Assembly (NCBI RefSeq): GCF_009695545.1
Contig: NZ_VUNS01000005.1
Span: 62,001 to 126,000 of the forward strand
Source: Victivallis lenta
Lineage (GTDB): Bacteria; Verrucomicrobiota; Lentisphaeria; Victivallales; Victivallaceae
Length of the DNA: 64,000 bases
Reading direction: 5' to 3'
The notes beneath the pieces are model-generated. The model was not told where the DNA came from, ran no database searches, and saw nothing but the letters and a program-made list of their open reading frames with translations. The position numbers and the translations under genes were made by a program. Below, one piece after another: positions 34,193 through 63,645 of the stretch (position 1 is its first letter; each line of letters begins with the position of its first letter).

Positions 34193-35031
34193 GATGAATT
34201 CCCCTCCATGCCGGCGCGCATCGCATCGATGGGAGCCGCGAGCCCGGTCCAGATTTCAAATGATTTCGCCCCCTGGTAGAGCAGCATCGCCGCCCCGCCC
34301 GCCGCCGGCAGCCCCGCCTGCCGGGCTTTGCGGAGCACCGGGGTGTCGAGATAGATCGTGTCGAAGACCGCCATGCGCAGCCCGGGCCGCAGCAGGCCGA
34401 GGTCGAACGGCGCGGGGTCGGTTTCGCGCAGCCCGAGGCTGGTGGCCTGAATCAGGAAATCCGTGGCGGCGAACCAGCGCGCGAGCGTATCGCTGTCGGA
34501 GGGGAGGGCGGTTTCGACCGCGAGACCCGGATTCGCCGCGCGGAGTTTTTCCGCAAGCTCTTCCGCCTTGGAGAGCGTCCGGTTGGCGAGGCGGATCGTC
34601 CGGACTCCGCGCTCCGCCAGGTGAAAGCTCGTCGCATGGGCCGCGCCGCCGCAGCCGATGAAGCAGACTTCGGCGCCGGCGAGCGGCCGGCCGAAGTTCG
34701 TTTCGAGCGCCATTTCAAGGCCGTACCCGTCCGTGCTGGTTCCGGCCAGCGTGCCGTCCTCCCGGACCGTCACGGTGTTGACGCTCGACGCGGCGAGCGC
34801 CTTCGGGTCGACCTCGTCGAGGTACGGGATGATCGCGGACTTGTGCGGAACCGTGCAGTTGAACCCGGCCAGTGTGCGGCGGGCCTCTTCGACGAAGGCG
34901 CCGAGCTCCCCGGGCCGGACGTGCCGCTTGACGTAGGGGGAGCCGAGACGGTAATGTTCGAAGGCGGCGTTCTGCATCCCGGGGGAACGGCTGTGTCCGA
35001 CGGGATCTCCGATGACAGCGTAGTTTCTCAT
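34186..35031 (-). CDS. aroE: Shikimate dehydrogenase
   Basis: AroE reduces 3-dehydroshikimate to shikimate with NADPH in aromatic amino acid synthesis. The 281 residues include AVIGDPVGHSRSPGMQNAAF (substrate loop with Ser), FNCTVPHKSAIIPYLD (catalytic Lys in VPHK), SSVNTV, TSTDGYGLEMAL (catalytic Asp), the nucleotide-binding GCGGAAHATSFHL, LANRTLSKAEEL and AAMLLYQGAKSFEIWTG near the C-terminus. The NRTxxKA motif is typical of the NADPH form. The start at 35031 has no good Shine-Dalgarno site. Confidence 0.95.
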   Translation of the reverse strand: MRNYAVIGDPVGHSRSPGMQNAAFEHYRLGSPYVKRHVRPGELGAFVEEARRTLAGFNCTVPHKSAIIPYLDEVDPKALAASSVNTVTVREDGTLAGTSTDGYGLEMALETNFGRPLAGAEVCFIGCGGAAHATSFHLAERGVRTIRLANRTLSKAEELAEKLRAANPGLAVETALPSDSDTLARWFAATDFLIQATSLGLRETDPAPFDLGLLRPGLRMAVFDTIYLDTPVLRKARQAGLPAAGGAAMLLYQGAKSFEIWTGLAAPIDAMRAGMEGNSSC

Positions 35032-49086: not shown

Positions 49087-50307
49087 ATGTCGTCTGTTCG
49101 CCGTGCCGTCGTTTTCGTCGTCCTGATTCTGGCCGCGGGGGCGGCCGCTGCCGCCGCGCCGGTCACTCCCTCCGTTGAGGTGCTGCTCAAAAAACATGCG
49201 GAGCTGCTGGCCGGCAGGCGGATCGGGCTCATCACGAATCAGACCGGCGTCGATTCGCAGCTTCGTTCGACGGCGGACCTGCTGCACGCCGACCCGCGTT
49301 TCAGGCTGGTCGCCCTGTTCGGACCCGAACACGGCATCCGCGGCGGCGCCGAAGCCGGGGAAAAGGTCGGCGACCGGCGCGACCCCGCGACCGGGCTGCC
49401 GGTCTATTCGCTCTATTCCGGCAGCGGCCGGGGGCCGTCTCCCGAGGCGCTGGCGGAGATCGACGTGCTGGTCTGCCATATCCAGGACATCGGCTGCCGT
49501 TCCTACACGTATGTCTGGACGATGGCGCTCGCCATGAAAGCGGCGGCCGCCGCCGGCAAGCTGTTCGTCGTGCTGGATGTGCCGAATCCGGTGCTGGCGG
49601 CCGGCGTGGACGGCGGTCCGCGCGAGGAGGAGGTGAAGTCGTTCATCGGGCTCTATCCGGTGCCGTACGTTTACGGCTTGACGGCCGGGGAGCTGGCGCG
49701 CTATCTGAATGAGGCGGAGGGGATCAACTGCGAGCTCGTCGTCATACCGATGGAAAATTACCGCCGCGACATGAGCTGGGCGGAAACCGGGCTTCCGTGG
49801 GTGCCGACCTCTCCGAACATCCCGTCTCCCGAGGCGGCGGTCTGCTATCCGCTGACCGGACAGCTCGGCGAGCTCGGCGAGGTCAACATCGGCGTCGGCT
49901 GGACGCTGCCGTTCCAAGTGGTCGGCGCGCCGTACCTGGATGCGCGCGCAATGGCGCGGGAGCTGAACGGGCGCAACTTCGAGGGGATTCTCTTTCGCCC
50001 GATCCACTATCGGCCCACCTGCGGCGTGTTCGCCGGCGAAGACATTCACGGCGTGCAGCTGCATGTGACGGATGTGAAACGCCTGCGGCCGGTCGAAATC
50101 GCCTATGCGGTCATGGAGTATGTCGTCCGGCAGGAAGGGTTCCGCTGGCCCGAAAAGCGGCTGGACATGTTCGCGAAGGCGACCGGCTCGAAACGGACTC
50201 AGCCGGAGCTGGCGGCCGGGAAGAAGGCGGCCGAATTCGTCGCGGAGTGGCAGCCGTATCTGCAAACATTCCGCGAAAAAACCGCGTCCTGTCTGATTTA
50301 CCCGTAA
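49087..50307 (+). CDS. namZ: Exo-beta-N-acetylmuramidase NamZ-like (DUF1343)
   Basis: NamZ-type enzymes (GH171) release N-acetylmuramic acid from the non-reducing end of peptidoglycan fragments. The 406-residue protein starts with a signal peptide (VVFVVLILAAGAAAAAAP). Family blocks follow: ELLAGRRIGLITNQTGVD, FRLVALFGPEHGIRGGAEAG (conserved Glu/His), LPVYSLYSG, VCHIQDIGCRSYTY, FVVLDVPNPVLA, ENYRRDMSWAETGLPWVPTSPN and GEVNIGVGWTLPFQVVGAPYLD. It is probably periplasmic or secreted and works in cell-wall recycling or scavenging. The divergent GntR/LacI regulator and convergent LacI regulator are its neighbours. The start is at 49087, preceded by AAAAGGGGGG. Confidence 0.92.
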   Translation: MSSVRRAVVFVVLILAAGAAAAAAPVTPSVEVLLKKHAELLAGRRIGLITNQTGVDSQLRSTADLLHADPRFRLVALFGPEHGIRGGAEAGEKVGDRRDPATGLPVYSLYSGSGRGPSPEALAEIDVLVCHIQDIGCRSYTYVWTMALAMKAAAAAGKLFVVLDVPNPVLAAGVDGGPREEEVKSFIGLYPVPYVYGLTAGELARYLNEAEGINCELVVIPMENYRRDMSWAETGLPWVPTSPNIPSPEAAVCYPLTGQLGELGEVNIGVGWTLPFQVVGAPYLDARAMARELNGRNFEGILFRPIHYRPTCGVFAGEDIHGVQLHVTDVKRLRPVEIAYAVMEYVVRQEGFRWPEKRLDMFAKATGSKRTQPELAAGKKAAEFVAEWQPYLQTFREKTASCLIYP

Positions 50308-50321
50308 ACCCGGGGCGGAAT

Positions 50322-51293
50322 TCAGGACTTCCGGGCTGCCGCGACGCTTTCGCGCAGGATGAGGTTATAGGGCAGCACGGTCCGGACCGGTGCTTTCTGG
50401 CCGTCGAGGCGCGCTTCGATGATGTCGGCGGTCGCGGCCGCCATCGCGGCGTAGTCCGGCGAAATCGTGGTCTGGGGCGGTACGGCGTAGTGCGAAAAGA
50501 AAGTCTGCTCCGAAGCGATCAGCGAAATGTCTTCCGGAACGCGCCGCCCGTAGAGGGAGAATGCATAAAGCATGACGATTCCGGCATTTCCGCCCGGGCA
50601 GAACAGCGCGTCTACCCCCTGCTTCAGGAGCTTTCCGGCCAGTTCGACATATTTGTCCGATCCGGGGCCGGAGAGCAGAATCAGCGAATCGTCGGCCGGA
50701 AATCCGCGGGATTTCAGCGCCCGGACGATCGCGTTCCGGCGGATATCCGTGTTGCCGGTTCCGGCCGAGCCGTGGACGATGCAGCCGATTTTCCGGCAGC
50801 CTCGCTCGTACAGATGGTCGATCGCGATGCGCATGCCCTGTTCTTCATCGGAACGGACGAAATACACTCCGGCGGGATTGCCCGTCCCCTCGCGGTCCAT
50901 GAGGACCAGCGGCACCGGGAACCGGTCCGGCCAGTCGCGGAAGTCGGCCGGTTCCGCGCCGATCGCGACAGCCGCGCAGAACTGGATGCTGTCGAGCCGT
51001 TCGCGGTTGTTGACCGGCAGAATCTCAAGCCGGAAATTGCGGCGCGGAAGTTCCTGCGTCAGCGCCATCAGGATCATGTCCACGCAGCTCTGCACCGGGT
51101 AGACCGAATGGTATGGGGTGAGGATGACCACGTTTCTCTGCCGGGTTGACAGCCGCGGGTGATAACCGTACTGCCGGGCCACGGCGAACACATGCTCACG
51201 CACCTCGGGGCGGATGCTCGGATGATGGCTGAATACCCGGGAGACGGTCGCGGTCGAGACGCCGGCCAGTTTGGCGATTTCCTGAATTTTCAT
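50322..51293 (-). CDS. LacI-family transcriptional regulator
   Basis: The 323-residue protein has the canonical LacI HTH (MKIQEIAKLAGVSTATVSRV, then FSHHPSIRPEVREHVFAVARQYGYHPR) and a sugar-binding sensor domain (NVVILTPYHSVYPVQS, PVPLVLMDREG, CRKIGCIVHGSAGTGNTDIRR, VDALFCPGGNAGIVMLYAF, PEDISLIASEQTFFSHY, PPQTTISPDYAAMAAATADII). It is likely to repress carbohydrate genes. Its natural targets may be the operon starting at 52018, which is divergent across the repeat-rich spacer, or its own gene. The ligand cannot be inferred. Confidence 0.92.
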   Translation of the reverse strand: MKIQEIAKLAGVSTATVSRVFSHHPSIRPEVREHVFAVARQYGYHPRLSTRQRNVVILTPYHSVYPVQSCVDMILMALTQELPRRNFRLEILPVNNRERLDSIQFCAAVAIGAEPADFRDWPDRFPVPLVLMDREGTGNPAGVYFVRSDEEQGMRIAIDHLYERGCRKIGCIVHGSAGTGNTDIRRNAIVRALKSRGFPADDSLILLSGPGSDKYVELAGKLLKQGVDALFCPGGNAGIVMLYAFSLYGRRVPEDISLIASEQTFFSHYAVPPQTTISPDYAAMAAATADIIEARLDGQKAPVRTVLPYNLILRESVAAARKS

Positions 51294-51535
51294 GAGCGCT
51301 TTTTCCTGTTTTATGATTCATTTACAATATATCGCGTTTTTTACGAAAACAAATCGATGTTTGCGTTTTCTTTTTCAGAAAGACGGAGATGCCGGGCTTG
51401 TCCCGGCCCTCGGGACGTGATATCTTGTTTACAGAGAAACCGGAAGGTGATGGCATATTGATATCGTCGAAATATGGGCAATGCCTCTCCGATCCGAGGT
51501 CCGTGGCCGAAGGGGGGCCGCTTTTTGTAAAACAA

Positions 51536-51588
51536 TAAACAATGCCTTTCTCGAAGGTGCGAGTACGGCGGAGCCGCACGGGACACCG
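51536..51588 (+). repeat. 53-bp repeat, first copy
   Basis: This copy runs from TAAACAATGCCTTTC to GGGACACCG and differs from the copy at 51857-51909 at two positions. It contains an inverted repeat (GTGCG...CGCAC) able to form a hairpin. It directly precedes the tandem 38-bp array. Confidence 0.85.
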
Positions 51589-51590
51589 GA

Positions 51591-51742
51591 GACGAGCACG
51601 ACACGCAGTGTCGGGCATGGTCTTTTGAGACGAGCACGACACGCAGTGTCGGGCATGGTCTTTTGAGACGAGCACGACACGCAGTGTCGGGCATGGTCTT
51701 TTGAGACGAGCACGACACGCAGTGTCGGGCACGATCTCTTCA
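51591..51742 (+). repeat. Four tandem 38-bp repeats
   Basis: Units begin GACGAGCACGACACGCAGTG at 51591, 51629, 51667 and 51705; the first three are identical and the last diverges at its end. Each unit contains CGACAC-GCA-GTGTCG, a 6-bp stem with a 3-base loop. Copies are contiguous, so it is not a CRISPR. Since 38 is not divisible by three, it is not coding repeats. Copy-number variation among strains is likely. Confidence 0.95.
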
Positions 51743-51856
51743 GAGAGCGGGGCCCCGAAAAGTATCATCCGTCGCGCAAGCGCAGTGGATGACAGGCCCG
51801 ACTTGTCCTCCGCAGCCTCGGCGAAGGAGGAAGGGGGGCAACTTTTGAGAAAAATA

Positions 51857-51909
51857 TAAACAATGCCTTTCTCGAAGGTGTGAGTACGGCGGAGCCGCAC
51901 GGAACACCG
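51857..51909 (+). repeat. 53-bp repeat, second copy
   Basis: It is the second copy of the element at 51536-51588, 321 bp downstream and in the same orientation, with two substitutions. A shared AGAGCGGGGC element follows it, as it also follows the tandem array. Confidence 0.85.
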
Positions 51910-52017
51910 TAGAGCGGGGCCCCCGAAAAGTACCCGAAGCTTTTGGGCATTCGGCCCAAAAGACCCGAGGCCCGTGGCCGAAGGGTGGCAACTTTTTGGG
52001 GAACATGGGAGGTTATC

Positions 52018-53052
52018 ATGACCGGCAAAGTGATCTGTATCCGTGAGAAGGGGAAAGCGGTGCTCGAAGAGTGCCCTGTTCCGGAGCCCGGTCCGGGCGA
52101 AGTGCTGATCGAAAACGATTACACCGTAATCAGTGCGGGGACCGAGCGCGCGAACCTGGTTGCGCTGCCGAACACCGGAACCTGTCCGGGCGGATATTCC
52201 GGCAGGGAGAAGGGCGGTTTCCCGTTCTGGCCCGGCTACTGCGGAGCGGGACGGATCGTGAAGCTCGGCAGGGAGGTCGAAGCCTTCCGGCCGGGCGACC
52301 GCGTTATCGTCAGCTGGGGCGGACACCGCACGCACTCGGTCAAAAAAGCGGCGGAGCTTGTGCGGATCGATGATGAACGGATCGATACGCTCGATGCGTC
52401 GTTCGCGCACATCGCGTCGTTCGCATTCCTCGGCGTCCGCAAACTGCGGCTCGAGGTCGGGGAGTCGGTCATGATCGCGGGGCAGGGGATTCTCGGGGTC
52501 TTTGCGCTGCAGTTCGCGGCGCTCTCCGGGGCGATTCCGCTCTTCGCGTCGGATTTCGACCCGGCGCGGCGGAAACTCGCCCTCGAACTCGGCGCCACCG
52601 CCGCATTCGTGCCGGATGAAACGCTGGCGGAGCGGGTCATGGCCGCCACCGGCGGCGCGGGCGTGAATGCCGCGGTTGAAGTGACCGGCAGCGCGAAGGC
52701 ACTGCAGCAGGCGCTCGAATACATCGCCTGGGAGGGGCGCATTTCGCTGCTCGGCTGCACACGGATTTCGGATGTGCCGATCGATTTCTACAAATATGTC
52801 CACCGCCGCGGAATCACGCTCATCGGCGCGCATACTTCGACCCGGGCGAAAACCGAGTCGGCGCCGGGACGCTGGACCGAACAGGACGATTACCGGACCT
52901 TCCTGAAACTGGTCGCGGCAGGCCGGCTGAAGATCCGTCCGCTGATCTCCGAAATCGTCTCTCCGGAACGGGCGCCGGAGGTTTACGCGCGTCTGGCGGA
53001 CGATCCGAAGGTGCCGCTCGGCATCGTGTTCGACTGGGCGAAAATCAGGTGA
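52018..53052 (+). CDS. MDR-family dehydrogenase (zinc-independent alcohol dehydrogenase-like)
   Basis: The 344-residue medium-chain dehydrogenase has the GroES-like N-terminal domain (EVLIENDYTVISAGTERANL, FPFWPGYCGAGRIV, FRPGDRVIVSW) and a Rossmann domain with nucleotide-binding IAGQGILGVFALQFA. Where zinc MDRs have the catalytic Cys (GICGTD), it reads VISAGTERA, as in the sugar-dehydrogenase-like and BchC/bi-domain oxidoreductase group, so zinc catalysis is unlikely. It probably oxidises a polyol, cyclitol or sugar hydroxyl with NAD(P). It is first in a nine-gene run; GGGAGG lies 7 bases before the ATG. Substrate unknown. Confidence 0.85.
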   Translation: MTGKVICIREKGKAVLEECPVPEPGPGEVLIENDYTVISAGTERANLVALPNTGTCPGGYSGREKGGFPFWPGYCGAGRIVKLGREVEAFRPGDRVIVSWGGHRTHSVKKAAELVRIDDERIDTLDASFAHIASFAFLGVRKLRLEVGESVMIAGQGILGVFALQFAALSGAIPLFASDFDPARRKLALELGATAAFVPDETLAERVMAATGGAGVNAAVEVTGSAKALQQALEYIAWEGRISLLGCTRISDVPIDFYKYVHRRGITLIGAHTSTRAKTESAPGRWTEQDDYRTFLKLVAAGRLKIRPLISEIVSPERAPEVYARLADDPKVPLGIVFDWAKIR

Positions 53053-53060
53053 GGCGAATC

Positions 53061-54086
53061 ATGGTGATTTCAGACGGGACGGCTTCTTCGCCGGAGGAGC
53101 GGCTGGAAAACGCCCGGCGGGAGGCTCAGACGCAGATCGCTTCCGGGCTGATCCAGGGGGCTGTCATCGCCGTCGCGGGCGGTCCCGCCGCCGCGGCGGG
53201 GCTCCAGTGCGTCCACCCTGCGGAGAAGCCGATGACGGTGCACTCCCGCTTCGACATCGCTTCGGTCGGCAAGGTGTTCACGGCTGCCTGCTGCGCTTTG
53301 CTGGCGGCGGACGGGGAGCTGGAGCCGGACGCGCCTTTCACCAGATATCTGCCGGAACATGTTCTGGGGAAAAGCTGCAATATTACGGTCCGGGATCTTG
53401 CAATGCACGCGGGCGGATTCGACAACAGCAAACCGTATGATTCGGATGACGTCGAAATTTTCAACCGGGAGCTTTTCGGCAAGCGTCCCGTCCGGCCGCG
53501 CCTGGAGGCTTTCGAGTATGCGTGTTCGAATTTCATTCTTCTCGGAAAAATAGCCGAACGGATTTCCGGGACGGATCTGGACACGCTGGCCCGGGAGCGC
53601 ATCTGGAAGCCGCTGGGGATGGACAGGACGCAGTGGCTCCCGCCGGGGGACGGCGACGATGAAGTCGAACACTGGTTCCCGAACCGTCCCGCCGGCCGGC
53701 ACAACGACGGCACCTGTTATCTGTGTCCGTTCCCGCTCGGGAGCGGCAGCTGTTTTTCAACCGCGCGGGATCTGCTTTTATTCGCGCGGGATATTCTCGA
53801 GCGCGGCCGCTTTCCCGGCGCGTATTATGACCTGATTACGAGTTGCCGGTTTGCGAAGAACGGCATCCGGCGCAGTTTCGGGTGGGATATGACGGACTCC
53901 CTGCGGCCGAGGGGGCTTTCGGCCGGAACGATTTTCCACTCCGGCTGGACGGGGCAGACGCTCTGCATCGACCCCGCAACAAAGTTCGCCGCCGTCGTTC
54001 TGACCTCGCGGACGGGGGATCATGAGGAAGCCCGCGCCGGGAGAAAGCGCATCATCGAAGCGCTGTATGGAACCCCGCCCGTTTGA
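53061..54086 (+). CDS. Serine hydrolase of the beta-lactamase/class C-like family
   Basis: The 341-residue protein shows class C beta-lactamase-like motifs: SxxK in FDIASVGKVFTAACC (Ser near residue 72), the second motif YxN position in EYACSNFILLGKIAE where the usual Asn aligns with Cys, and HxG in IFHSGWTGQTLCID. It has no signal peptide, so it is a cytoplasmic esterase, amidase or lactonase rather than an antibiotic resistance enzyme. In the operon it may cleave an ester or lactone of the pathway substrate. The ATG at 53061 has GAGG upstream; a GTG at 53049 overlaps the preceding stop. Confidence 0.85.
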   Translation: MVISDGTASSPEERLENARREAQTQIASGLIQGAVIAVAGGPAAAAGLQCVHPAEKPMTVHSRFDIASVGKVFTAACCALLAADGELEPDAPFTRYLPEHVLGKSCNITVRDLAMHAGGFDNSKPYDSDDVEIFNRELFGKRPVRPRLEAFEYACSNFILLGKIAERISGTDLDTLARERIWKPLGMDRTQWLPPGDGDDEVEHWFPNRPAGRHNDGTCYLCPFPLGSGSCFSTARDLLLFARDILERGRFPGAYYDLITSCRFAKNGIRRSFGWDMTDSLRPRGLSAGTIFHSGWTGQTLCIDPATKFAAVVLTSRTGDHEEARAGRKRIIEALYGTPPV

Positions 54087-54174
54087 GGCGCGGAATGTTT
54101 TCCGTTTCGGAGTGATCAATTACTAAGGGGATAGTATGTTAATGCCATCGAAATATTAACAATGGAGGAAATCT

Positions 54175-55188
54175 ATGAAGGAAGTCGGGAAGAATCGCCG
54201 GGTTCTGGTTCTCGGCGGCACGGGGGCGATGGGGGTCTATCTGGTGCCGGAGCTGGCGTCGCTGGGCTGCACAGTCCGCGTGGTTTCGCTGGATGACGTC
54301 GTGTCGAACGATCCGAACGTCTCCTATGTCAGGGCCGATGCGCATGACATCGGGTTCATGGAGAAGCTGCTGGCGGAGAAGTTCGACGCGATCGTCGATT
54401 TCATGATCTATTCGACGGAGGAGTTCCGCTGCCGGCACGAGCTTCTGCTGAAGAACACCGGACACTACATTTTCCTGTCGTCCTACCGCGTGTACAGCGG
54501 CGGCGTTCCGGTGACGGAAGAGACGCCGCGGCTGCTGGACGTATCGGAAGACCGGGAGTTCCTGGCGACCGAGGATTACTCCCTTTACAAAGCGCGCGAG
54601 GAGGACATCCTGCAGAACTCCGGATATGAAAACTGGACGATCGTCCGCCCGGCCATCACCTATTCGAAGTTCCGTTACCAGCTGGTCACGCTGGAGGCGC
54701 CCGTCCTGATCGCGCGGGCGCTGGCGGGACTGCCGGTCGTGCTCCCCCGCGAGGCGCTCGCCGTGCAGGGGACGATGAACTGGGCGGGAGATGTGGCCCG
54801 GATGTTCTCACGGCTGCTGTTCAATCCGGCGGCCGTGCGCGAATGCTTCACGCTGGCCACCGCCGAGCACCACGCCTGGGGCGAGATTGCGGAGTACTAC
54901 AAAGAGATCATCGGCTTGGAATATGTCGCCGCCGATACGGAAGATTACATAGGAATCATGGGCGGAAGCTGCTGGGCCCGCTACCAGCTTAATTACGACC
55001 GGATGTTCAACCGGGTCGTCGACAACTCCAAACTTCTGCGCGTGACCGGCCTGAGGCAGGAGGAACTTATGCCGCTCCGGCAGGGGCTCGAGCGGGAACT
55101 CGCCGCCCTGCCGCGGAACACCGTCTGGCCGGATGCCGGCGCGGTCTGGAAACGCATGGACGATTATCTCAAAAAACACAGGAGCTGA
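54175..55188 (+). CDS. NAD-dependent epimerase/dehydratase family protein
   Basis: The 337-residue extended SDR has the N-terminal NAD(P)-binding VLVLGGTGAMGVYLVPEL, IVDFMIY and HYIFLSSYRVYSG. The usual YxxxK is seen as YSLYKAREED. The C-terminal domain (about 180-337) is the substrate-binding part. This resembles NmrA/isoflavone-reductase-like and nucleotide-sugar epimerases. A nucleotide-sugar substrate is not required; members also act on free cyclitols or keto-sugars. GGAGG lies upstream of the ATG at 54175. A 6-bp inverted repeat (GTTAAT...ATTAAC) lies between this gene and the previous one. Confidence 0.83.
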   Translation: MKEVGKNRRVLVLGGTGAMGVYLVPELASLGCTVRVVSLDDVVSNDPNVSYVRADAHDIGFMEKLLAEKFDAIVDFMIYSTEEFRCRHELLLKNTGHYIFLSSYRVYSGGVPVTEETPRLLDVSEDREFLATEDYSLYKAREEDILQNSGYENWTIVRPAITYSKFRYQLVTLEAPVLIARALAGLPVVLPREALAVQGTMNWAGDVARMFSRLLFNPAAVRECFTLATAEHHAWGEIAEYYKEIIGLEYVAADTEDYIGIMGGSCWARYQLNYDRMFNRVVDNSKLLRVTGLRQEELMPLRQGLERELAALPRNTVWPDAGAVWKRMDDYLKKHRS

Positions 55189-55193
55189 ATGTT

Positions 55194-56216
55194 ATGGAAA
55201 AGATCAGAATCGGTCAGATCGGCATTTGCCACGAGCATGCGGCAGGCAAGATGCATACGCTGCGGCTGCTGCCGGAGGTGTTCGAGGTCGTCGGCGTCGT
55301 CGACGACCGCGGTTCGGCTGCGGCGCAGTTCCCGAGCGGCGACCTGACGCCTTATGACGGTCTCCGATGGATGAGCGAAGAGGAGCTGTTCGCCGTGCCG
55401 GGACTCCGGGCGGTCGTCATCGAGACGCCCAATCTGGAGCTGGTTCCGACGACGTTCCGCTGCCTCGAACACAATCTGCCGGTCCACATGGACAAGCCCG
55501 GCGGCGACGACCTCGCGGCATTCGACCGTCTGCGGCAGGGGTTCGAGGAGCGGAACCTGCCGTTCCAGATGGGCTATATGTTCCGCGGCAACCCGGCCAT
55601 GCAGTGGATTCTCGACGCGGCCCGGAAAGGGTGGCTCGGGGAGATCTTCGAAGTGCAGGCGAGCATGAGCCACAACTACGGCGGGGAGGAGTATCAGGCA
55701 TACATCGGCCGCCTGCCGGGCGGAATCATGTTCAATCTCGGCTGTCACCTGATCGATTTCGTCATTTCGCTGCTCGGGCGCCCGTCCGGCGTCACTCCGT
55801 TCCTGAAGTCGGCGCCGGGGGACCCTGACCGGATTCTGAACAACTGCGTGGCCGTGCTCGAATATCCGCACGCGACGGCGACGCTGCGGGCGTGCAGCCG
55901 CGAGGCCGGCGGTCTCGACCGGCGGCTGAAAGTCTGTGGAACGAAGGGTTCGGTCGATCTCTGCCCGCTCGAACGGTTCGACGGGCAGCCGCTCGAGATG
56001 AAGCTGTTTCTGGCGGAAGGCAATGACACGTTCGCTTCCGGCGCCCATACGCTTTCATTCGGTCCCGTGCGCGACCGCTATGAAACGCAGCTTCTCGAGC
56101 TGGCCCGGATGGTTTCCGGGGAGATTCCGAATCCCTGCGACCGGCGGCACGACACGCTTGTCGAAGAGGTGCTGCTCGCCGCCTCCGGCTGCATGCAATA
56201 TCAATCACGGAGATGA
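55194..56216 (+). CDS. Gfo/Idh/MocA-family oxidoreductase
   Basis: The 340-residue protein has an NAD(P)-binding Rossmann domain that starts with the atypical IGQIGICHEHAAGKMHTLRLL instead of GxGxxG, seen in a subgroup of the family. The DKPGGDDLAAFDRL block carries the Lys of the family EKP motif (E to D), and GGIMFNLGCHLIDFVI carries the conserved HxxD, with Asn replacing the usual Asp before it. The C-terminal domain is the beta-sheet substrate domain. It probably oxidises a sugar or cyclitol. The stop TGA lies inside the Shine-Dalgarno region of the next gene. Confidence 0.87.
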   Translation: MEKIRIGQIGICHEHAAGKMHTLRLLPEVFEVVGVVDDRGSAAAQFPSGDLTPYDGLRWMSEEELFAVPGLRAVVIETPNLELVPTTFRCLEHNLPVHMDKPGGDDLAAFDRLRQGFEERNLPFQMGYMFRGNPAMQWILDAARKGWLGEIFEVQASMSHNYGGEEYQAYIGRLPGGIMFNLGCHLIDFVISLLGRPSGVTPFLKSAPGDPDRILNNCVAVLEYPHATATLRACSREAGGLDRRLKVCGTKGSVDLCPLERFDGQPLEMKLFLAEGNDTFASGAHTLSFGPVRDRYETQLLELARMVSGEIPNPCDRRHDTLVEEVLLAASGCMQYQSRR

Positions 56217-56221
56217 ATGAC

Positions 56222-56998
56222 ATGAAACGAACCTTTCTGAATCAGTCCCATCCGGTCGTCACCGGAATTTTCTGCGGGCAGACTCCGGCGGAGCTGATCG
56301 CCGAAGCGCGGAACTGCGAATTCGAGGGCGCGGACGGCATTGCCGTCGAGCTGCGCGACCTGAAGGCCGAATACCGCAACGCCGAATCGCTGAAAAGCGT
56401 TGTCGACGCGGTGAACCTGCCGTTCATGTTCGTCTTTTACCGCAACGATACGCAGCAGAATCTGGACGACGACGCACGGCAGGAGGTGCTGCTCGCCGCC
56501 GCCGATGCCGGAGCCTCGGTCATCGACGTGATGGGCGACCTTTACGACCCGTCGCCGATGGAGCTCACCCGCAATCCGGCCGCCGTCGACAGACAGAAGC
56601 GGCTGATCGACCGGATTCACGCCAAAGGCGCCGACGTGGTTATTTCGTCCCATATGCAGTGTTCGCGGACGGCGGAACAGGTGCTGGAGCACCTGCGTGA
56701 AGTCGAATCGCGCGGCGCGGATATCGTGAAGATCGTGACCGCCGTCAACACCGATGAGGAACTGGCCGAGGCGTTCCGCACGACGCTGATGCTGAAACGG
56801 GAGCTCAGGACACCGTTCATCCACCTCTGCAACGGCGCTTACAGCCGCCCGCACCGTTTCATGGGGCCGGCGCTCGGCGTTTCGGTCCTGTTCGCAGTGT
56901 CGCACTACGAGCCGCGATACGGCATGGGCCAGCCGACGGTCCGCGCCTTGAAGACCGTTCTCGAAAATATGCGCTGGAACATCAACGACCTGAAATAG
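56222..56998 (+). CDS. Type I 3-dehydroquinate dehydratase homologue
   Basis: The 258-residue (beta/alpha)8 protein matches type I 3-dehydroquinate dehydratase (AroD). GIFCGQTPAELIAEA opens the barrel; GADGIAVELRDLK carries the conserved Glu of strand 2; VVISSHMQCSRTAEQVLEHL carries the catalytic-dyad His (family 'SxHDF'); and DIVKIVTAVNTDEE carries the Schiff-base Lys (family KIA). AYSRPHRFMGP and RYGMGQPTVRAL parallel the SR and PGQ substrate-binding motifs. The enzyme would eliminate water from a beta-hydroxy ketone. It is embedded in a catabolic-looking operon and away from aroE (34.2 kb), so a role other than aromatic synthesis is likely. I prefer the ATG at 56222, GGAG 9 bases upstream. 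Confidence 0.82.
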   Translation: MKRTFLNQSHPVVTGIFCGQTPAELIAEARNCEFEGADGIAVELRDLKAEYRNAESLKSVVDAVNLPFMFVFYRNDTQQNLDDDARQEVLLAAADAGASVIDVMGDLYDPSPMELTRNPAAVDRQKRLIDRIHAKGADVVISSHMQCSRTAEQVLEHLREVESRGADIVKIVTAVNTDEELAEAFRTTLMLKRELRTPFIHLCNGAYSRPHRFMGPALGVSVLFAVSHYEPRYGMGQPTVRALKTVLENMRWNINDLK

Positions 56999-57013
56999 CG
57001 AAAGGAGCCGCCC

Positions 57014-57763
57014 ATGGAAAAACGTCTGATCGGAAAGGTCGCCCTCGTCACCGGTTCGAGCGGGGTCATCGGCCCCGCGATCGTGCGCCGCCTTGCGGCG
57101 GAGGGAGCGGTCGTGGCAGCGACCGACCGTTCGCTTGAAACGGCGCGGGCGGTTGCGGATGAAGCGGCTGCATCGGGTGGGGAGGTCCGGGCGTTCGCGC
57201 TCGACGTGACCGATGCGGCGCAGGTCGATTCTGCGTTCGCCGCAGTGGAGGCCGGACTCGGCCCTGTCGATATTCTGGTGAACAACGCCGGTTTCGTCCG
57301 GAAAAGCTCCGACCCGTTCCAGCTGGTGGAAGAGGAGCTCTGGAGCCGGATTCTCGATGTGAACCTCGGCGGCGTCATCCGCTGCTGCCGCCGGGTGCTC
57401 GGCGGAATGATCGCGCGCAGATACGGCAAAATCATCAATCTCGGCTCGATCGCCGGCGTCTCCGGGCTGCCGGGGTGGGCGGATTACGCAGCCTCCAAAG
57501 GCGGCGTAATCGCCTTCAGCAAGACGATTGCAATGGAGGCCGGGGCGCATGGAGTCACCGTCAACTGCGTTTCGCCGGGCATGATCGGCGTGGAGTCGGG
57601 GGAGAACCGGGGAACCTGGCTGGGACGCTCCGGCACCGGGGAAGATGTTGCCGGGGTGATCGCTTTTCTGGCCTCTCCCGAAGCGGATTACATCACCGGC
57701 TGCAATTATATGGTGGACGGCGGCCGGGTGGTCGGTCCGAAAAACGCTTCATGGAATGAATGA
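57014..57763 (+). CDS. Short-chain dehydrogenase/reductase (first of two)
   Basis: The 249-residue classical SDR has VALVTGSSGVIGPAIVRRL (NAD-binding), ILVNNAGFVRK (NNAG), INLGSIAGVSG (active-site Ser), and YAASKGGVIAFSKTIAME (Tyr/Lys). The C-terminus GCNYMVDGGRVVGP is typical. The substrate is unknown; polyols, keto-acids and cyclitols are common for this group. It is 15 bases after the dehydratase and overlaps or abuts the next SDR. Confidence 0.92.
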   Translation: MEKRLIGKVALVTGSSGVIGPAIVRRLAAEGAVVAATDRSLETARAVADEAAASGGEVRAFALDVTDAAQVDSAFAAVEAGLGPVDILVNNAGFVRKSSDPFQLVEEELWSRILDVNLGGVIRCCRRVLGGMIARRYGKIINLGSIAGVSGLPGWADYAASKGGVIAFSKTIAMEAGAHGVTVNCVSPGMIGVESGENRGTWLGRSGTGEDVAGVIAFLASPEADYITGCNYMVDGGRVVGPKNASWNE

Positions 57764-57788
57764 CCGGAAAATGGAAAGTGCTGGAAAT

Positions 57789-58541
57789 ATGGAATTTAAA
57801 GGGAAAACCGCGATTGTGACCGGCGCCGCTTCGGGGATGGGGCTGCTTTCCGCCCGGAAGCTGGCCGAAGGCGGCGCGAGCGTCGTGCTCTGCGACGTGA
57901 ACGCCGAGCGGGTCGAAGCCGCGGCGGAGGAGATCCGCCGGAACGGCGGAAAAGCCTTCGCCGTCAAAGTGGATGTCCGCCGTTACGAGGAGGTTGAGGC
58001 CGCCGCGAAGTTCACGGTGGAGAGCTGCGGGCGGATCGATATCCTCATCAACTGCGCGGGCGGTTACTGCGGGCGGATCTTCGGCCGTTCCGAGAGTTTC
58101 AAGGATCTGCCGGTCGAGGTCCTCGAGTGGGGGGCCGACGTCAATTTCAAGGGGCCGATCTGGTTCTGCCGCGCCGTGTTCAACACGATGGCGGAGCAGA
58201 AGGGCGGCGTCATCATCAACCTCGGTTCGATCGACGGGGTGACCGGCGGGGCCGTCGTCTACGGCGCGGCCAAGGCGAGCATGATCGGGCTGACGAAGTC
58301 GCTGGCGATTCTCGGCGCGCCGTACAATATCCGCGCCTGCTGCGTGTCGCCCGGCCCGGTCCTGACCCGCCCGGCGATGGCCGGCATGGCGACTTTGCTG
58401 AAGCGCGCCGCCGAGCCGGCCGAGGTGGTGGATCTGATCCTCTACCTCTGTTCGGAGAAGGCCGCCTTCATCACCGGCAGCAACTATCTGATTGACGGCG
58501 GCCGCGCCTGCGGCGGAGCCTGCTATATTGAAAAGGAGTGA
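57789..58541 (+). CDS. Short-chain dehydrogenase/reductase (second of two)
   Basis: The 250-residue classical SDR carries AIVTGAASGMGLLSARKLAE, ILINCAGGYCGR (NAG-like with Cys), INLGSIDGVTGG and YGAAKASMIGLTKSLA (Tyr/Lys). It shares the family plan with the preceding SDR but is clearly divergent from it, so this is not a recent duplication. The ATG at 57789 starts the domain (MEFKGKTAIVTG); an ATG at 57756 overlapping the previous stop is an alternative. Substrate unknown. Confidence 0.92.
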   Translation: MEFKGKTAIVTGAASGMGLLSARKLAEGGASVVLCDVNAERVEAAAEEIRRNGGKAFAVKVDVRRYEEVEAAAKFTVESCGRIDILINCAGGYCGRIFGRSESFKDLPVEVLEWGADVNFKGPIWFCRAVFNTMAEQKGGVIINLGSIDGVTGGAVVYGAAKASMIGLTKSLAILGAPYNIRACCVSPGPVLTRPAMAGMATLLKRAAEPAEVVDLILYLCSEKAAFITGSNYLIDGGRACGGACYIEKE

Positions 58542-58547
58542 GTTTTT

Positions 58548-59504
58548 ATGAATGCGATGCTGATTGACGCCGGCGGCCGCCTGGCGAAAACCGTTGTCCC
58601 GGACCCTGTCCGCAGGGAGGGGGAAGTTCTGATCGAGGTCCATGCCGCCGCCGTGAACCGCGCCGACCTGATGCAGTGCGACGGCAATTATCCGCCGCCG
58701 CCGGGCTGGCCGGAGTGGCCCGGGCTCGAGGTCGCCGGGGTTGTGCTTGAGACGCCGGATTCCTCGCGCTTCAGGCCCGGCGACCGGGTCTGCGCGTTGC
58801 TCGGCGGGGGAGGGTATGCCGAAAAGATCGCCGTTCCGGAGGGGATGGTTCTGCCGGCTCCGGACGGGCTCTCGATGGAAGAGGCGGCGGCCGTCCCCGA
58901 AGTGTTTGCGACCTCCTATCTTAATTTCGTGATTGAAGCCGGGATGAAGGCCGGGGATACGGTGTTCGTTCAGGCCGGGGCGAGCGGGCTCGGCATCGCC
59001 GCGATCCAGCTTGCGAAGTGCGCCGGATGCCAAGTCGTCACTACGGTCGGCACGCCGGAGAAGGCCGCTTTCGTCCGTGCGCTCGGGGCCGATGTCGTCG
59101 TGAATCACCGGACGGACGACCTCGGCGCGGCGCTCGATGCGAACCCGCCCGACATTGTGCTCGACTGCGTCGGCGGCTCGGAGTTCGGGGCGCTTTTCAC
59201 GAAAATGGCGATGCGCGGACGCTGGATTCAGATTGCGGCGCTCGGCGGCGCCCGTTCGGAGATTTCGCTCGATACGGTGTTCCGCAAGAATCTCCGGCTG
59301 ATCGGCAGCACGCTGCGGAGCCGCACGAACGAGATGAAACGTGAAGTGCTGCGTTCCCTGGAGCGCGAGTACTGGCCGAAGTTCGCGTCCGGCGCGATCC
59401 GTCCGGTCATTTTCCGCGTTCTGCCGCTCGAAGAGGCGGCCGGGGCGCACGGAATCCTGCGCCGCCGCGAGAACATCGGCAAGGTGGTTCTTCGCGTCCG
59501 CTGA
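58548..59504 (+). CDS. Quinone oxidoreductase-like MDR (zeta-crystallin family)
   Basis: The 318-residue zinc-free MDR shows IEVHAAAVNRADLMQCDGNYPPP (typical NRxDxxxxxGxYP of quinone oxidoreductase/PIG3-like members), PGLEVAGVVLE, VCALLGGGGYAEK and FVQAGASGLGIAAIQLAK (NADPH-binding GASGxxG). The family reduces quinones or enones with NADPH. In a pathway with a dehydratase forming an enone, it could reduce the double bond; that is inference. It ends 139 bases before the next gene. Confidence 0.9.
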   Translation: MNAMLIDAGGRLAKTVVPDPVRREGEVLIEVHAAAVNRADLMQCDGNYPPPPGWPEWPGLEVAGVVLETPDSSRFRPGDRVCALLGGGGYAEKIAVPEGMVLPAPDGLSMEEAAAVPEVFATSYLNFVIEAGMKAGDTVFVQAGASGLGIAAIQLAKCAGCQVVTTVGTPEKAAFVRALGADVVVNHRTDDLGAALDANPPDIVLDCVGGSEFGALFTKMAMRGRWIQIAALGGARSEISLDTVFRKNLRLIGSTLRSRTNEMKREVLRSLEREYWPKFASGAIRPVIFRVLPLEEAAGAHGILRRRENIGKVVLRVR

Positions 59505-59599
59505 GTTCCGGCAGATCGATTTTTCGGGATGTTTTGCCGAAGAGAGGATTGCATTTTCCTTTTTTGCGATTACACTAAAAGGATGACAATTTTTTACGT

Positions 59600-59614
59600 C
59601 TTCCCATAGGGAAG
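59600..59614 (+). terminator. Short hairpin before the last operon gene
   Basis: CTTCCC-ATA-GGGAAG forms a 6-bp stem between the quinone oxidoreductase and the second Gfo/Idh gene. The T-run lies upstream of it, so it may be an attenuator or incidental. The 139-bp gap suggests the last gene may also be expressed separately. Confidence 0.3.
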
Positions 59615-59643
59615 CGGGCAACTATCTGGAAAGACATGGGATT

Positions 59644-60696
59644 ATGAGCGGAAAAGTGATCGGCGGAGCCGTGATCGGCTACGGCGGGATGGGGGGATTC
59701 CATTCCGAAAAGATGCAGAGTGTGGACGGAGTCGAGCTGCTCGGCGTGTACGACATCGACCCCGAACGGAACGAACTGGCGGAGAGCAGGGGCATCCATG
59801 CTTATCCGTCGCGCGAGGCGCTGCTGGCCGATCCGAAGATCGGGCTCGTGACGGTTGCGACGCCGAACGACGTTCACAGGGAGATCGTGATCGCCGCGCT
59901 CGCGGCCGGCAAGAACGTGATCTGCGAGAAGCCGGTCGCGATGGACAGCGCGGAGCTTGAGGAGATGATCGCCGCCGCGAACAGATACGGCCGGCTTTTC
60001 ACGGTTCACCAGAACCGCCGCTGGGACGAGGATTATCTGACCATGCGGAAGATCGTCGAGGCGGGCGAGCTCGGCAATGCGTACCGCATCGAGTCGCGCG
60101 TGCACGGTTCGCGCGGCATTCCGGCCGGCTGGCGCGAAGAGAAGGCGCACGGCGGCGGCATGGTGCTCGACTGGGGCGTGCATCTGCTCGACCAGATGCT
60201 GACCATGATGGGGGACCGCAAGCTGCTTTCGGTCTATGCCACGATGACCAATATCACGAATGACGAGTGCGACGACGGCTTCACCGCGCAGGTGAAGTTC
60301 GAGAACGGTCCGGAGTGGATCGTCGAAGTCGGCACCTGCAACTATATCGAAATGCCGCGCTGGTACGCCTTCGGCGACAGCGGTTCTCTGATCATCCGCA
60401 ACTGGGATTGCGACGGCGAGATCGTGAAGATCTACAACCGCGGCGAGGACGATGTTCCGCCGGTGCTGGCCGGCGCCGGCCTGACCCGGACCATGGCGCC
60501 GCGCAATGAGCAGACCGTCGAGAAGTTCCCGATTGAAAGGGTCAAGTCGGACTGGGCCGAATATTACAGGAACGTGATCGCGACCCTGAACGGAAAAGCG
60601 GAGATCGTGGTTACCCACGACCAGCTCCGCCGTTCGATGAAGCTGATCGAAGCGGTCTTTGAATCTGCCCGGAAGAACGAAGTCGTCAAGTTCTGA
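59644..60696 (+). CDS. Gfo/Idh/MocA-family oxidoreductase (second)
   Basis: The 350-residue protein has GGAVIGYGGMGGFHSEKMQ (NAD-binding GxGxxG), VICEKPVAMDSAELEEM (EKP motif), and GGGMVLDWGVHLLDQM (conserved Asp and His), all canonical. It therefore keeps the usual catalytic residues, unlike the first Gfo/Idh gene of the run. It likely oxidises or reduces a sugar or cyclitol hydroxyl. It may belong to the same operon, with a 139-bp gap before it. Confidence 0.92.
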   Translation: MSGKVIGGAVIGYGGMGGFHSEKMQSVDGVELLGVYDIDPERNELAESRGIHAYPSREALLADPKIGLVTVATPNDVHREIVIAALAAGKNVICEKPVAMDSAELEEMIAAANRYGRLFTVHQNRRWDEDYLTMRKIVEAGELGNAYRIESRVHGSRGIPAGWREEKAHGGGMVLDWGVHLLDQMLTMMGDRKLLSVYATMTNITNDECDDGFTAQVKFENGPEWIVEVGTCNYIEMPRWYAFGDSGSLIIRNWDCDGEIVKIYNRGEDDVPPVLAGAGLTRTMAPRNEQTVEKFPIERVKSDWAEYYRNVIATLNGKAEIVVTHDQLRRSMKLIEAVFESARKNEVVKF

Positions 60697-60769: not shown

Positions 60770-61792
60770 TTACGCGCGTGCGGAGGTGCCGGCCACTTGC
60801 CGCCACACTTTTTCGCAACGGCCGCAATGGCGGCAGTCCGTCGCGCAGTCGGCGGCGGTTCCGAACCAGTCGCCCGGAAAGCGGCGGTTGTCGATCCAGC
60901 TTTCGCGCCCGAAAAGGCTCGAAAAGTTCGGTTCCATCAGCATTGTCAGGTTTCCGTCGAACCGGCCGGAGGCATAGGCCCCGATCACCATGCGCGGCCG
61001 GTCGTGCTGCCGCGTCGCCAGCTTGACGACGTCCACCAGGCCCTCATAGCATCGGATGTCTTCCGGCCGGATCCACGAACCTTTCAGGAATTCGATTCTG
61101 CGGACCGGGTCGCGGTAATAGGGCCAGCAGATCGTCGGGTCGGAGTGTTCCGGCGACGTTCTGCGGGCCGCCGCTTCGGCGGAGTGCGCGACGAAGTTGT
61201 CGTGAAAGGTCTGGGCCGGGCAATTCCGCAGACAGCCGCTGTTGGCCAGCATGCAGAGCTTCCAGCCGCGTTCGCGGCAGCGGTCGGCGAATTCGCGGAC
61301 CCGCCCGGGGTTCCGCTGGATATCCCGGCGGATGTAGAAGCTGTCGAACCGGCCGTCGAGATAGTCGAGTGCCGACAGCGAATCCAGCCGCATGTTGATC
61401 GAGGCGCGCCGCTCAATGCCGGGAGCGGCCTCCCGGAGCAGCTCCGCAATGAACACCGAGGCGGTCGTAACGATCTCCGGCAGCAGCCCGAGCGAGTCGA
61501 GCCGCTCGAGAATGCCGCACACCTCCCGCTCCAGCTTCTCCGAAACGGCATCGGCGCCGTAACAGTTTGCGTTGAAGAGCAAGTCGAGTTTGACGCCGAG
61601 TCTGCGGATCTTCCGCAGCTCGTTTTCGAGCCGTTCCTGCGCGCCCCAGTCCGTCGCGGGTGCGTTCGGGCGGCCTGACGGCTGTCCGCTCCAGGAGAAG
61701 TAGACTTCCGCAACGGCTTCACGGTAGTCGGTCACCACGGCGGAAAACGGTTCGCCGCCGGGCGCATCCCGGTAGCCGATGGCGAATTTCAT
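60770..61792 (-). CDS. U32-peptidase-like Fe-S protein
   Basis: The 340-residue protein has a barrel-like N-terminal region (NMRLDSLSALDYLDGRF, FYIRRDIQRNPGRVREFADRC) followed by MLANSGCLRNCPAQTFHDN, which matches the 'NEGCLxxCPxRxxHxN' motif of peptidase U32 proteins. The C-terminus has a second Cys set (CATDCRHCGRC). U32-family members include tRNA and quinone hydroxylation factors with Fe-S clusters, so it may bind a cluster and act in hydroxylation rather than as a protease. The start at 61792 overlaps the IclR gene (ATGA), so the two are co-expressed. Confidence 0.72.
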   Translation of the reverse strand: MKFAIGYRDAPGGEPFSAVVTDYREAVAEVYFSWSGQPSGRPNAPATDWGAQERLENELRKIRRLGVKLDLLFNANCYGADAVSEKLEREVCGILERLDSLGLLPEIVTTASVFIAELLREAAPGIERRASINMRLDSLSALDYLDGRFDSFYIRRDIQRNPGRVREFADRCRERGWKLCMLANSGCLRNCPAQTFHDNFVAHSAEAAARRTSPEHSDPTICWPYYRDPVRRIEFLKGSWIRPEDIRCYEGLVDVVKLATRQHDRPRMVIGAYASGRFDGNLTMLMEPNFSSLFGRESWIDNRRFPGDWFGTAADCATDCRHCGRCEKVWRQVAGTSARA

Positions 61793-62520
61793 ATGCCGGA
61801 AACTCCTTCCTGCAGGCGTTCCGCCGCTGTTTTCAGTTCCCCGAGAAGCTGTTCCGCTGTGCGGCCTGCCGGAATGGAGCCGTGAAATCCGAGGGAGAAA
61901 CGGCCGCCGCACGGGATCGCCGCATACAGCTCCGAATCGCCTTCGCGCCGTTCGGCGTGTCCGGCCCGGCGGCAGTCGTCGAGCATGCGCCTGAAGGCTT
62001 CGAGACTGCCCCAGAGCGGAGAACCGAATTCCCGGAACGGATATTTCCGCTCGAATCCGGCCGCGTCGAATTCCCCGAACGCCTGAAAACAGAGCCCGGT
62101 CACGGTGCTGTACGGCGGAAACAGAAATGACAGCGGCCGCTGTATCTGTCCCGGCCGGTCGGGCGACATGCGCAGCCGGCAGAAGATTTCGCAGCCCGAG
62201 AGTTCGCAGAACGTCAGTACCGCATCGGGAAAGCATCCGGAAAGCCGCGGCAGCTCCCGTTCGGCCGCCGCAAGGAGCGAGCCGCGCCGCTGACCGGCCA
62301 GCAGCTCGCCGGGTGCTGAGCCGAGCCGCAGCTTTCGAGCCGCGTCCTGCTCCAGATAGTGACGCGCCCGCAGCGTGCGCACGAGATTGTAGGCGGTGGG
62401 GCGCTTGAGGCCGAAGGCATCGACGATTTCGCCCAACCGGACTCCTTCCGGGCGGTCGGAGACGAATTGAAGAATATCCAGCGCCTTCACCACCGAGTTG
62501 ACCAGATCGGAATTCGGCAT
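61789..62520 (-). CDS. IclR-family transcriptional regulator
   Basis: The 243-residue protein has an N-terminal winged helix (SVVKALDILQFVSDRPEGVR and LGEIVDAFGLKRPTAYNLVRTLRARHYLEQ) and a GAF-like effector domain with FPPYSTVTGLCFQAFGEF and ELYAAIPCGG. IclR regulators typically control catabolic genes for aromatic or sugar-acid compounds. The adjacent U32-like gene is in the same operon; the nine-gene run converges on it. No operator is evident. Confidence 0.9.
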   Translation of the reverse strand: MPNSDLVNSVVKALDILQFVSDRPEGVRLGEIVDAFGLKRPTAYNLVRTLRARHYLEQDAARKLRLGSAPGELLAGQRRGSLLAAAERELPRLSGCFPDAVLTFCELSGCEIFCRLRMSPDRPGQIQRPLSFLFPPYSTVTGLCFQAFGEFDAAGFERKYPFREFGSPLWGSLEAFRRMLDDCRRAGHAERREGDSELYAAIPCGGRFSLGFHGSIPAGRTAEQLLGELKTAAERLQEGVSGI

Positions 62521-62580: not shown

Positions 62581-63645
62581 TCAGTCCACATCGCTCGATC
62601 CGGTCCGGTCCGGACGGAAGACGGTTCCCGCGGCGTATTCCGGGGGCGTGGACCAGTCGACCGACCATTGCGGGCGCCGCCGGAATTTCTGCCGGAACGA
62701 GTTTTGCAGCACGCCGCGTGTTTCGAGGCTGATCATGCAGGCGCGCGTGCACCCGCGCGAGCCGCAGACGGCCTGTCCGGTGTTGTACAGATTCCGCGGC
62801 TTCCGGTAAAACGGGCTCCAGCTGCCGGGTTTGGTCGGCGCTCCCCACTCCATGTACGGCGGCTTCTGCTCCGTCTCCGCCGGGGCCGCGCCGCGGAAGG
62901 TCATGTCGCATCTGGCCATATCGAGGTCGGACCACTCGACTTCCCGTCCGGCCAGCGTGGTTTTTACAGTCCGATCCGTCGGAAAACAGCCGCCGGGACA
63001 CGCTTTCACGCATGCCATGCAGCGGTTGCAGAGCTGCGGTCCGTTGTAAAGCGGGTCCGGCTGGAGCTCGACGTCGGTCAGCACGATGCCGACGCGGCAG
63101 CGCGGGCCGAACTGCGGCGACAGGAACATTTTCGAAAATCCGATTTCACCGAGCCCGCACAGAAACGCCGCGATCCGGAGCTGGATCATGATGTCCGGCT
63201 GCGGTTTGCCGGGCGCGACCGGACGGCTGTAATTCCGGATCGCATATCCGTCCGCATCGATGCCGCGCCAGTCGCTCTGGTGTCCCATCGGGATCGCCTC
63301 GTATCCCTGGTCTTCGATGAATTTGCTGAGGTTGATCACGGTCATCGGCATATAGAGATAGGTAATGCCGCCGTAACCCATGGCGGAGTAGTTGCTGAAG
63401 TAGGTCCCTTCCTCAATGCCGCGCAGACTGCCGCGTTCGACTCGGAACACCATGCCGATAATCGATTTGCATTCCGGCATGATCTGTTTCGGGTCCATCT
63501 GCAGCGGCGCGGTTGCCCAGCGGTCGATGCTGCCGATGCCGACCGCGTCCGCACCGAATTCCAGTGCTTTGCGTTTGACTGTCTCTGCCGCTTCCGCCGG
63601 ATCGCCGAAATCATATTCGTTGAAGTTCCGCGTCATGATCGCCAT
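62581..63645 (-). CDS. QueG-like 4Fe-4S protein
   Basis: The 354-residue protein resembles epoxyqueuosine reductase/reductive dehalogenase-type iron-sulfur proteins. The C-terminal half has a CxxCxxCxxxCP 4Fe-4S motif (LCNRCMACVKACPGGCFP) and another Cys group (VCGSRGCTRACM). The N-terminal two thirds include GADAVGIGSIDRW, CKSIIGMVFRVERG, and LCGLGEIGFSKMFLSPQFGPR, which parallel QueG's cobalamin-binding-like region (GWIGKNxxLIxPxxGS). QueG itself is usually 350-380 residues. It could be a paralogue for another reductive reaction, since its neighbours are catabolic. AGGAG lies 9 bases before the ATG. Confidence 0.75.
   Translation of the reverse strand: MAIMTRNFNEYDFGDPAEAAETVKRKALEFGADAVGIGSIDRWATAPLQMDPKQIMPECKSIIGMVFRVERGSLRGIEEGTYFSNYSAMGYGGITYLYMPMTVINLSKFIEDQGYEAIPMGHQSDWRGIDADGYAIRNYSRPVAPGKPQPDIMIQLRIAAFLCGLGEIGFSKMFLSPQFGPRCRVGIVLTDVELQPDPLYNGPQLCNRCMACVKACPGGCFPTDRTVKTTLAGREVEWSDLDMARCDMTFRGAAPAETEQKPPYMEWGAPTKPGSWSPFYRKPRNLYNTGQAVCGSRGCTRACMISLETRGVLQNSFRQKFRRRPQWSVDWSTPPEYAAGTVFRPDRTGSSDVD

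Follow-up and report, generated by a model that had tools for sequence, protein, structure and literature searches.

Gene organisation at the locus

The window analysed here is a 64,000-nucleotide stretch of the Victivallis lenta genome (contig NZ_VUNS01000005.1, positions 62,001 to 126,000 of the forward strand), and the subject is a gene cassette within it that surrounds a homologue of AroD, the type I 3-dehydroquinate dehydratase (DHQ1). A total of nine open reading frames (ORFs) were found at 52018-60696, every one on the plus strand. In Pfam and NCBIfam scans they were assigned, in order, to a medium-chain dehydrogenase (MDR), a beta-lactamase-fold serine hydrolase, an extended short-chain dehydrogenase (SDR), a Gfo/Idh oxidoreductase, DHquinase_I, two classical SDRs, a PIG3-family MDR and another Gfo/Idh oxidoreductase, in agreement with the nine co-oriented genes and the families given in a preliminary description of this DNA. 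The spacings along the run were −4, 88, 5, 5, 15, 22, 6 and 139 bp, that is, one true overlap, five gaps of ≤22 bp and 139 bp before the last gene; the earlier wording that many genes overlap or lie less than 30 bp apart was thus sound as to the short gaps and generous as to the overlaps. The genes considered are the following:

50322-51293, minus strand: LacI-family regulator, divergent from the cassette
52018-53052, plus strand: MDR1, medium-chain dehydrogenase (Pfam ADH_zinc_N)
53049-54086, plus strand: serine hydrolase of beta-lactamase/esterase fold (PF00144, 166 bits), optional
54175-55188, plus strand: eSDR, extended/atypical SDR (PF01370)
55194-56216, plus strand: GFO1, Gfo/Idh/MocA oxidoreductase with the motif DKPGG (PF22725/PF02894)
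56222-56998, plus strand: AroD-like putative dehydratase, type I dehydroquinase fold with a remodelled diol pocket (PF01487)
57014-57763, plus strand: SDR1, classical SDR, accessory (PF00106); the SDR1 type occurs in some loci
57786-58541, plus strand: SDR2, classical SDR, proposed core partner of the AroD-like enzyme, with orthologues and fusions elsewhere
58548-59504, plus strand: PIG3-type quinone oxidoreductase, presumed enone reductase and core partner (TIGR02824, 346.2 bits, above the cut-off of 296.8)
59644-60696, plus strand: second Gfo/Idh oxidoreductase, co-oriented, probably outside the conserved unit

The AroD homologue and the biosynthetic enzymes

The AroD-like protein scored above the cut-off of PF01487 DHquinase_I (73.8 vs. 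22.2 bits) and below that of the aroD equivalog TIGR01093 (34.3 vs. 139.3 bits). No other type I enzyme was found in the genome, which has a strong type II AroQ as well. In a phylum survey of 288 genomes, 49 had an AroD-like protein and 83 an ordinary AroD; AroQ appeared in 47 of the former and in none of the latter (Fisher's exact test, 8e−34, uncorrected for relatedness). The two AroD-like genomes lacking an AroQ match (G022 and G263) may reflect draft-genome gaps or a dependence on the AroD-like gene. Furthermore, a tree of 67 rows was split by one branch, with support of 100/99, into AroD-like and ordinary AroD proteins (45 vs. 22 rows), the ordinary side comprising Salmonella AroD and the AroDs of the phylum, with the catabolic QuiB of Acinetobacter or Listeria not included.

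A biosynthetic identity was ruled out by the separate clade, the co-occurrence with AroQ and the active-site residues described below; judged from its sequence, the AroD homologue is therefore not the biosynthetic enzyme, and its clade is probably wrongly annotated as 3-dehydroquinate dehydratase. The preliminary description had likewise held that this was not a simple aromatic synthesis cluster, as aroE lay elsewhere at 34.2 kb, and aroE was indeed recognised by eye at 34186-35031 on the minus strand. Neither of the two outcomes that it had named as contradicting its proposal, namely a homologue that lies within the biosynthetic clade as the sole AroD of the genome, or neighbourhoods that are not conserved, was obtained, since the clade is separate, AroQ is present in the genome and the genes are conserved together. 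The reading of the gene product as a biosynthetic enzyme, now superfluous or degenerate, that has strayed into an operon with which it has no connection is hardly credible and largely refuted: its PF01487 match and the lack of any other type I enzyme in the genome would be expected in that case, but the separate clade, the presence of AroQ, catalytic residues invariant across phyla and the conserved neighbours would not.

Fold, active site and the quinate and inositol proposals

The AlphaFold2 model of the AroD-like protein (mean predicted local distance difference test, pLDDT, of 95.7) had DHQ1 chains as its first 49 PDB matches, those of dehydroquinate dehydratase-shikimate dehydrogenase included, with a template-modelling (TM) score of ~0.76. 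The motifs VVISSHMQ and IVKIVTAV, put forward earlier as carrying the catalytic His and Lys, aligned with H143 and K170 of Salmonella AroD. In the Salmonella enzyme, R213 and Q236 bind the substrate carboxylate, K170 together with H143 contacts the ketone, and the C4/C5 hydroxyls are bound by E46, R48 and R82, and by D114 via a water (PMC9902378). Residues were counted, in Salmonella numbering, in 78 AroD-like sequences (76 distinct); the counterparts of R213 and Q236 in the window protein are R212 and Q237. K170, H143, D114 and R213 were each present in 78/78 sequences and Q236 in 74/78. On the other hand, E46 was kept in one sequence, R48 in none and R82 in one (Tyr in 76), as opposed to the ordinary AroDs of the tree, where E46 and R48 were found in 30/31 and R82 in 31/31. 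A profile-profile alignment built from separate alignments placed the active-site residues in the same register. Moreover, the AroD-like family showed an insertion of ~10 residues after strand 4 with an invariant DVMGDLYD. The AroD-like enzyme would thus share with DHQ1 the covalent chemistry and the carboxylate position, and differ in what it accepts at the opposite end of the substrate.

The edge of the family, as drawn from these residues, is not sharp, because one of the two proteins of the Halobellus locus L127 (ORF 41) keeps E46 and R82 and has no Q236; it is perhaps an intermediate form. At that locus, on a Halobellus limi plasmid (10084-12795), the two AroD-like genes have an SDR in between.

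Because the ring-diol-binding residues E46, R48 and R82 are gone, 3-dehydroquinate is not supported as the substrate and is unlikely to be it. A quinate or shikimate pathway, one of the routes considered in the preliminary description, would convert quinate into 3-dehydroquinate, then by the AroD homologue into 3-dehydroshikimate, and finally by PIG3 and the SDRs into hydroxylated cyclohexanecarboxylates as an electron sink. This route has in its favour a fold, Schiff-base Lys/His and carboxylate Arg/Gln all as in DHQ1, and the order SDR, dehydratase and enone reductase is compatible with such a reductive route, reported in older Lactobacillus work, but it was considered improbable, as hardly any of the 78 members retains the C4/C5 diol residues and the NCBIfam aroD score is 34 against a cut-off of 139. 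Moreover, no PF00775 match, and hence no protocatechuate-type intradiol dioxygenase, was found in the genome, so that the aerobic branch, at any rate, is missing, and an intradiol-dioxygenase route for quinate was rejected. The Pfam and NCBIfam scans of the nine genes returned no quinate/shikimate dehydrogenase or 3-dehydroshikimate dehydratase family; a divergent SDR or MDR could act on quinate. No description of the AroD-like subfamily or of its conserved pathway was found in the literature searched, a search that was not aimed at reductive quinate metabolism in Lactobacillus.

Another proposal made earlier was an inositol-like cyclitol; a pathway for an inositol or other uncharged cyclitol would make the AroD homologue a keto-inositol dehydratase replacing IolE. 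No IolE match above the family cut-off was found in the genome, which would leave room for such a replacement and by which the canonical inositol route was rejected, and the Gfo/Idh and MDR genes weakly matched inositol-related models. However, the two Gfo/Idh proteins scored only 35.5 and 127.7 bits against IolG, far under its cut-off of 355, and keto-inositols have no carboxylate for the carboxylate-binding pair of an invariant Arg213 and a nearly invariant Gln236. This proposal was therefore given little credence.

Conservation of the cassette across genomes

A pattern-based scan of ~85,000 species genomes yielded 62 loci with an AroD-like gene, whose gene calls were clustered; with the window, 63 loci were considered. 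Since the gene caller was a simple one, the absence of a gene at a single locus is weak evidence. The most constant neighbour was PIG3 (41 loci), followed by an SDR (35), GFO1 (25), the divergent LacI gene (22), eSDR (21), MDR1 (19) and the serine hydrolase (6). When only the 34 loci flanked on each side by 4 kb or more were counted, PIG3 was found in 25. At the genome level, PIG3 was present in 47 of the 49 AroD-like genomes surveyed and in 21 of the 239 others (Fisher's exact test, 7e−35, uncorrected for relatedness).

The AroD-like gene was carried by Lentisphaerota, Verrucomicrobiota, Planctomycetota, Spirochaetota, Bacillota and Bacteroidota and by one Kiritimatiellota locus, where it was accompanied by eSDR, and the cassette was found in the first five of these phyla. 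The carriers included the cultured Victivallis vadensis DSM 14823 (L035) and, among others, gut and rumen bacteria. More distant homologues were located on Mesorhizobium and haloarchaeal plasmids, the Mesorhizobium one being adjoined by SDRs, a quinone oxidoreductase and an FAH-family hydrolase. The label 'type I 3-dehydroquinate dehydratase' on these plasmid proteins would lead metabolic models to count a shikimate-pathway step falsely.

Overall, seven cassette genes and the upstream divergent LacI gene recurred around AroD-like genes in several phyla. From gene content, the conserved unit is taken to be the AroD-like gene together with those for the PIG3-type MDR (the presumed enone reductase), an SDR, a Gfo/Idh, the extended SDR, an MDR and the divergent LacI. 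The last Gfo/Idh gene (59644-60696) is probably to be left out, because no orthologue was found in the cassettes of other loci and a 139-bp gap precedes it. The genes are thus conserved together, as the preliminary description had expected, and its nine-gene unit is a real one, to which LacI has to be added, from which the last gene has to be dropped and in which the serine hydrolase is optional.

Other versions of the cassette carried hydrolases of different folds; in particular, those of Bacillota had metallo-beta-lactamase-fold proteins nearest to AHL lactonases. The spirochaete version had genes of a TRAP transporter, a type typical for carboxylates, inside the cassette. Among 82 same-strand flanking proteins, no family recurred apart from additional Gfo/Idh proteins (5) and proteins with a metallo-beta-lactamase fold (4). 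Sugar-acid neighbours that did not recur were a glucuronate isomerase in L044 and an L-arabinonate dehydratase-like match among the flanking proteins. PDB sequence searches with SDR1, SDR2, PIG3, GFO1 and eSDR did not point to a substrate; there was no close solved relative for eSDR and no solved relative at E 1e−10 for GFO1.

Several features were observed around the cassette in the window. Between it and the LacI gene, at 51589-51731 and 51521-51935, lay a perfect 38-bp tandem repeat of 3.8 copies as well as a dispersed ~96-bp element that had 37 genomic matches. Beside the LacI gene, a 406-aa ORF (49087-50307, plus strand) had a signal-like N-terminus and appears to be exported. Downstream of the cassette there were an IclR regulator (61789-62520, minus strand) and an iron-sulphur protein (62581-63645, minus strand) with a weak likeness to reductive dehalogenases (51.6 bits, below the cut-off). 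By eye, an IclR-like protein and three tandem proteins resembling this iron-sulphur protein were recognised near the AroD-like gene of L142, and a 770-residue protein resembling it in L085.

Cassettes without the AroD-like gene

A second cassette, lacking the AroD-like gene, was found in the same genome (contig C2, locus L149, ~123-132 kb), containing LacI, MDR1, GFO1, an SDR, eSDR, another Gfo/Idh (GFO2), a PIG3 65% identical to that of the window, an amidohydrolase-2 protein and a major facilitator superfamily (MFS) transporter. The LacI orthologue headed most cassettes of this kind. The comparison covered 40 cassettes, each containing PIG3 plus two or more further members; those with and those without the AroD-like gene came from different searches. 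GFO2 was present in only 1 of 29 cassettes with the AroD-like gene vs. 9 of 11 without it (Fisher's exact test, 2e−6, the cassettes not being independent by descent). On one reading, GFO2 would have taken the place of the eliminating enzyme without being its orthologue; on another, the two versions would act on two related substrates. The ILVD/EDD dehydratases beside two of these cassettes were discarded as a sugar-acid clue, as they score as the branched-chain amino acid enzyme IlvD.

Core trio and proposed relay

SDR2 orthologues adjoined AroD-like genes in Lentisphaerota, Spirochaetota and Bacillota with ~48-64% identity, those of Bacillota and most Spirochaetota versions having ~48-61%. 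Furthermore, in L130 and L132 an SDR2-type SDR was fused to the AroD-like domain, giving 501-residue proteins of 52-54% identity, and in L130 PIG3 adjoined the fusion. These associations point to SDR2, the AroD-like enzyme and PIG3 as the core of the cassette, and the succession of oxidation, dehydration and enone reduction suggested in the preliminary description fits this trio, of which two members occur as a single fused protein in some genomes.

Reactions of the type I dehydroquinase kind depend on a ketone; water is taken from the carbon that bears the carboxylate, across the adjacent C-C bond. In the relay proposed here, whose order follows from the enzyme families and the gene association, SDR2 would oxidize an alcohol to a ketone, with which the lysine of the AroD-like enzyme would form a Schiff base; water or another leaving group would then be eliminated from the carboxylate-bearing carbon two positions from the ketone, giving a gamma-keto alpha,beta-unsaturated acid, whose new double bond would be reduced by the PIG3-type MDR. 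The two redox steps would cancel, making the trio a redox-neutral deoxygenation, formally a 1,3-diol dehydratase. Changes at further hydroxyl or carbonyl positions would fall to GFO1, MDR1, eSDR and SDR1, and the opening of an ester or lactone, as the first step, to the exchangeable hydrolase. The leaving group, the substrate class and the catabolic role are likewise inferred.

As regards the substrate, a carboxylated keto-sugar or other keto-cyclitol acid appears more likely than 3-dehydroquinate. The LacI control suggests a sugar-like inducer; together with the TRAP transporter, the metallo-beta-lactamase-fold proteins and the serine hydrolase, it agrees with a carboxylated sugar-like substrate reached via a lactone or ester, and none of these names the substrate. 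Overall, the interpretation of the locus as a catabolic, LacI-controlled cassette around the three-enzyme relay, acting on a carboxylated sugar derivative or a cyclitol acid other than 3-dehydroquinate, was favoured by a little over an even chance. A broader proposal was put forward only tentatively and is rather doubtful as a whole, namely that SDR2, the AroD-like enzyme and PIG3 form a previously unrecognised module of redox-neutral deoxygenation, free of B12 and radicals and spread over at least five phyla, for the breakdown of carboxylated sugar or cyclitol acids, in which the eliminating enzyme can be swapped (AroD-like or GFO2).

Some observations weigh against the relay. Around one third of the AroD-like loci had no PIG3 in the examined DNA, some of them through contig ends, and both Bacteroidota loci had the AroD-like gene alone, without the cassette. 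SDR2 and PIG3 also occurred together in cassettes lacking the AroD-like gene, hence they are not its exclusive partners. Moreover, PIG3-family MDRs reduce quinones too, the enone being assigned from family knowledge; the dehydratase activity of the AroD-like protein is a prediction, and the cassette does not reveal where the pathway ends. A different assignment would make the AroD homologue a Schiff-base aldolase or retro-aldolase, with PIG3 and the SDRs serving other steps; the barrel is indeed of the lysine-based class I kind and its pocket is remodelled, including the family-specific DVMGDLYD insertion, but the equivalent of the catalytic His143 is invariant and the prevalence of PIG3 points to an enone, so that an aldolase was regarded as unlikely. 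If the relay of SDR2, the AroD-like enzyme and PIG3 is real, it would represent a distinct route for the removal of hydroxyls from sugar-like acids in gut, rumen and other bacteria.

Comparison with known systems

One close likeness is that to AroD/DHQ1 (Salmonella 1QFE/1GQN), with which the AroD-like protein shares the fold, the Schiff-base Lys, the catalytic His and the carboxylate Arg and Gln. In contrast, it differs by the loss of the C4/C5 diol residues, the DVMGDLYD insertion, the separate clade, the catabolic-looking neighbourhood and the coexistence with AroQ. The plant dehydroquinate dehydratase-shikimate dehydrogenase (2GPT, 2O7Q) likewise joins a barrel of the AroD type to an NAD(P)-dependent dehydrogenase; however, the fusion partner in L130 and L132 is an SDR2-type classical SDR and not an AroE-type shikimate dehydrogenase. 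Quinate/shikimate utilisation (Qui/Qut) resembles the cassette in combining a dehydrogenase with a dehydroquinase-type barrel, whereas the cassette has lost the diol pocket, was found without an intradiol dioxygenase, and includes PIG3 and Gfo/Idh, which are not part of Qui/Qut. The glycoside 3-keto pathways, of the Bacteroides BT2156-BT2160 type, reportedly proceed by Gfo/Idh oxidation followed by beta-elimination, and the GFO2 proteins of the cassettes lacking the AroD-like gene weakly match the models of such pathways (levoglucosan dehydrogenase). Unlike in them, elimination in the cassette would fall to the AroD-like Schiff-base barrel, which has a presumed enone reductase as its neighbour. 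Taken together, the AroD-like protein would add a new variant to a known enzyme family, as part of a conserved pathway.

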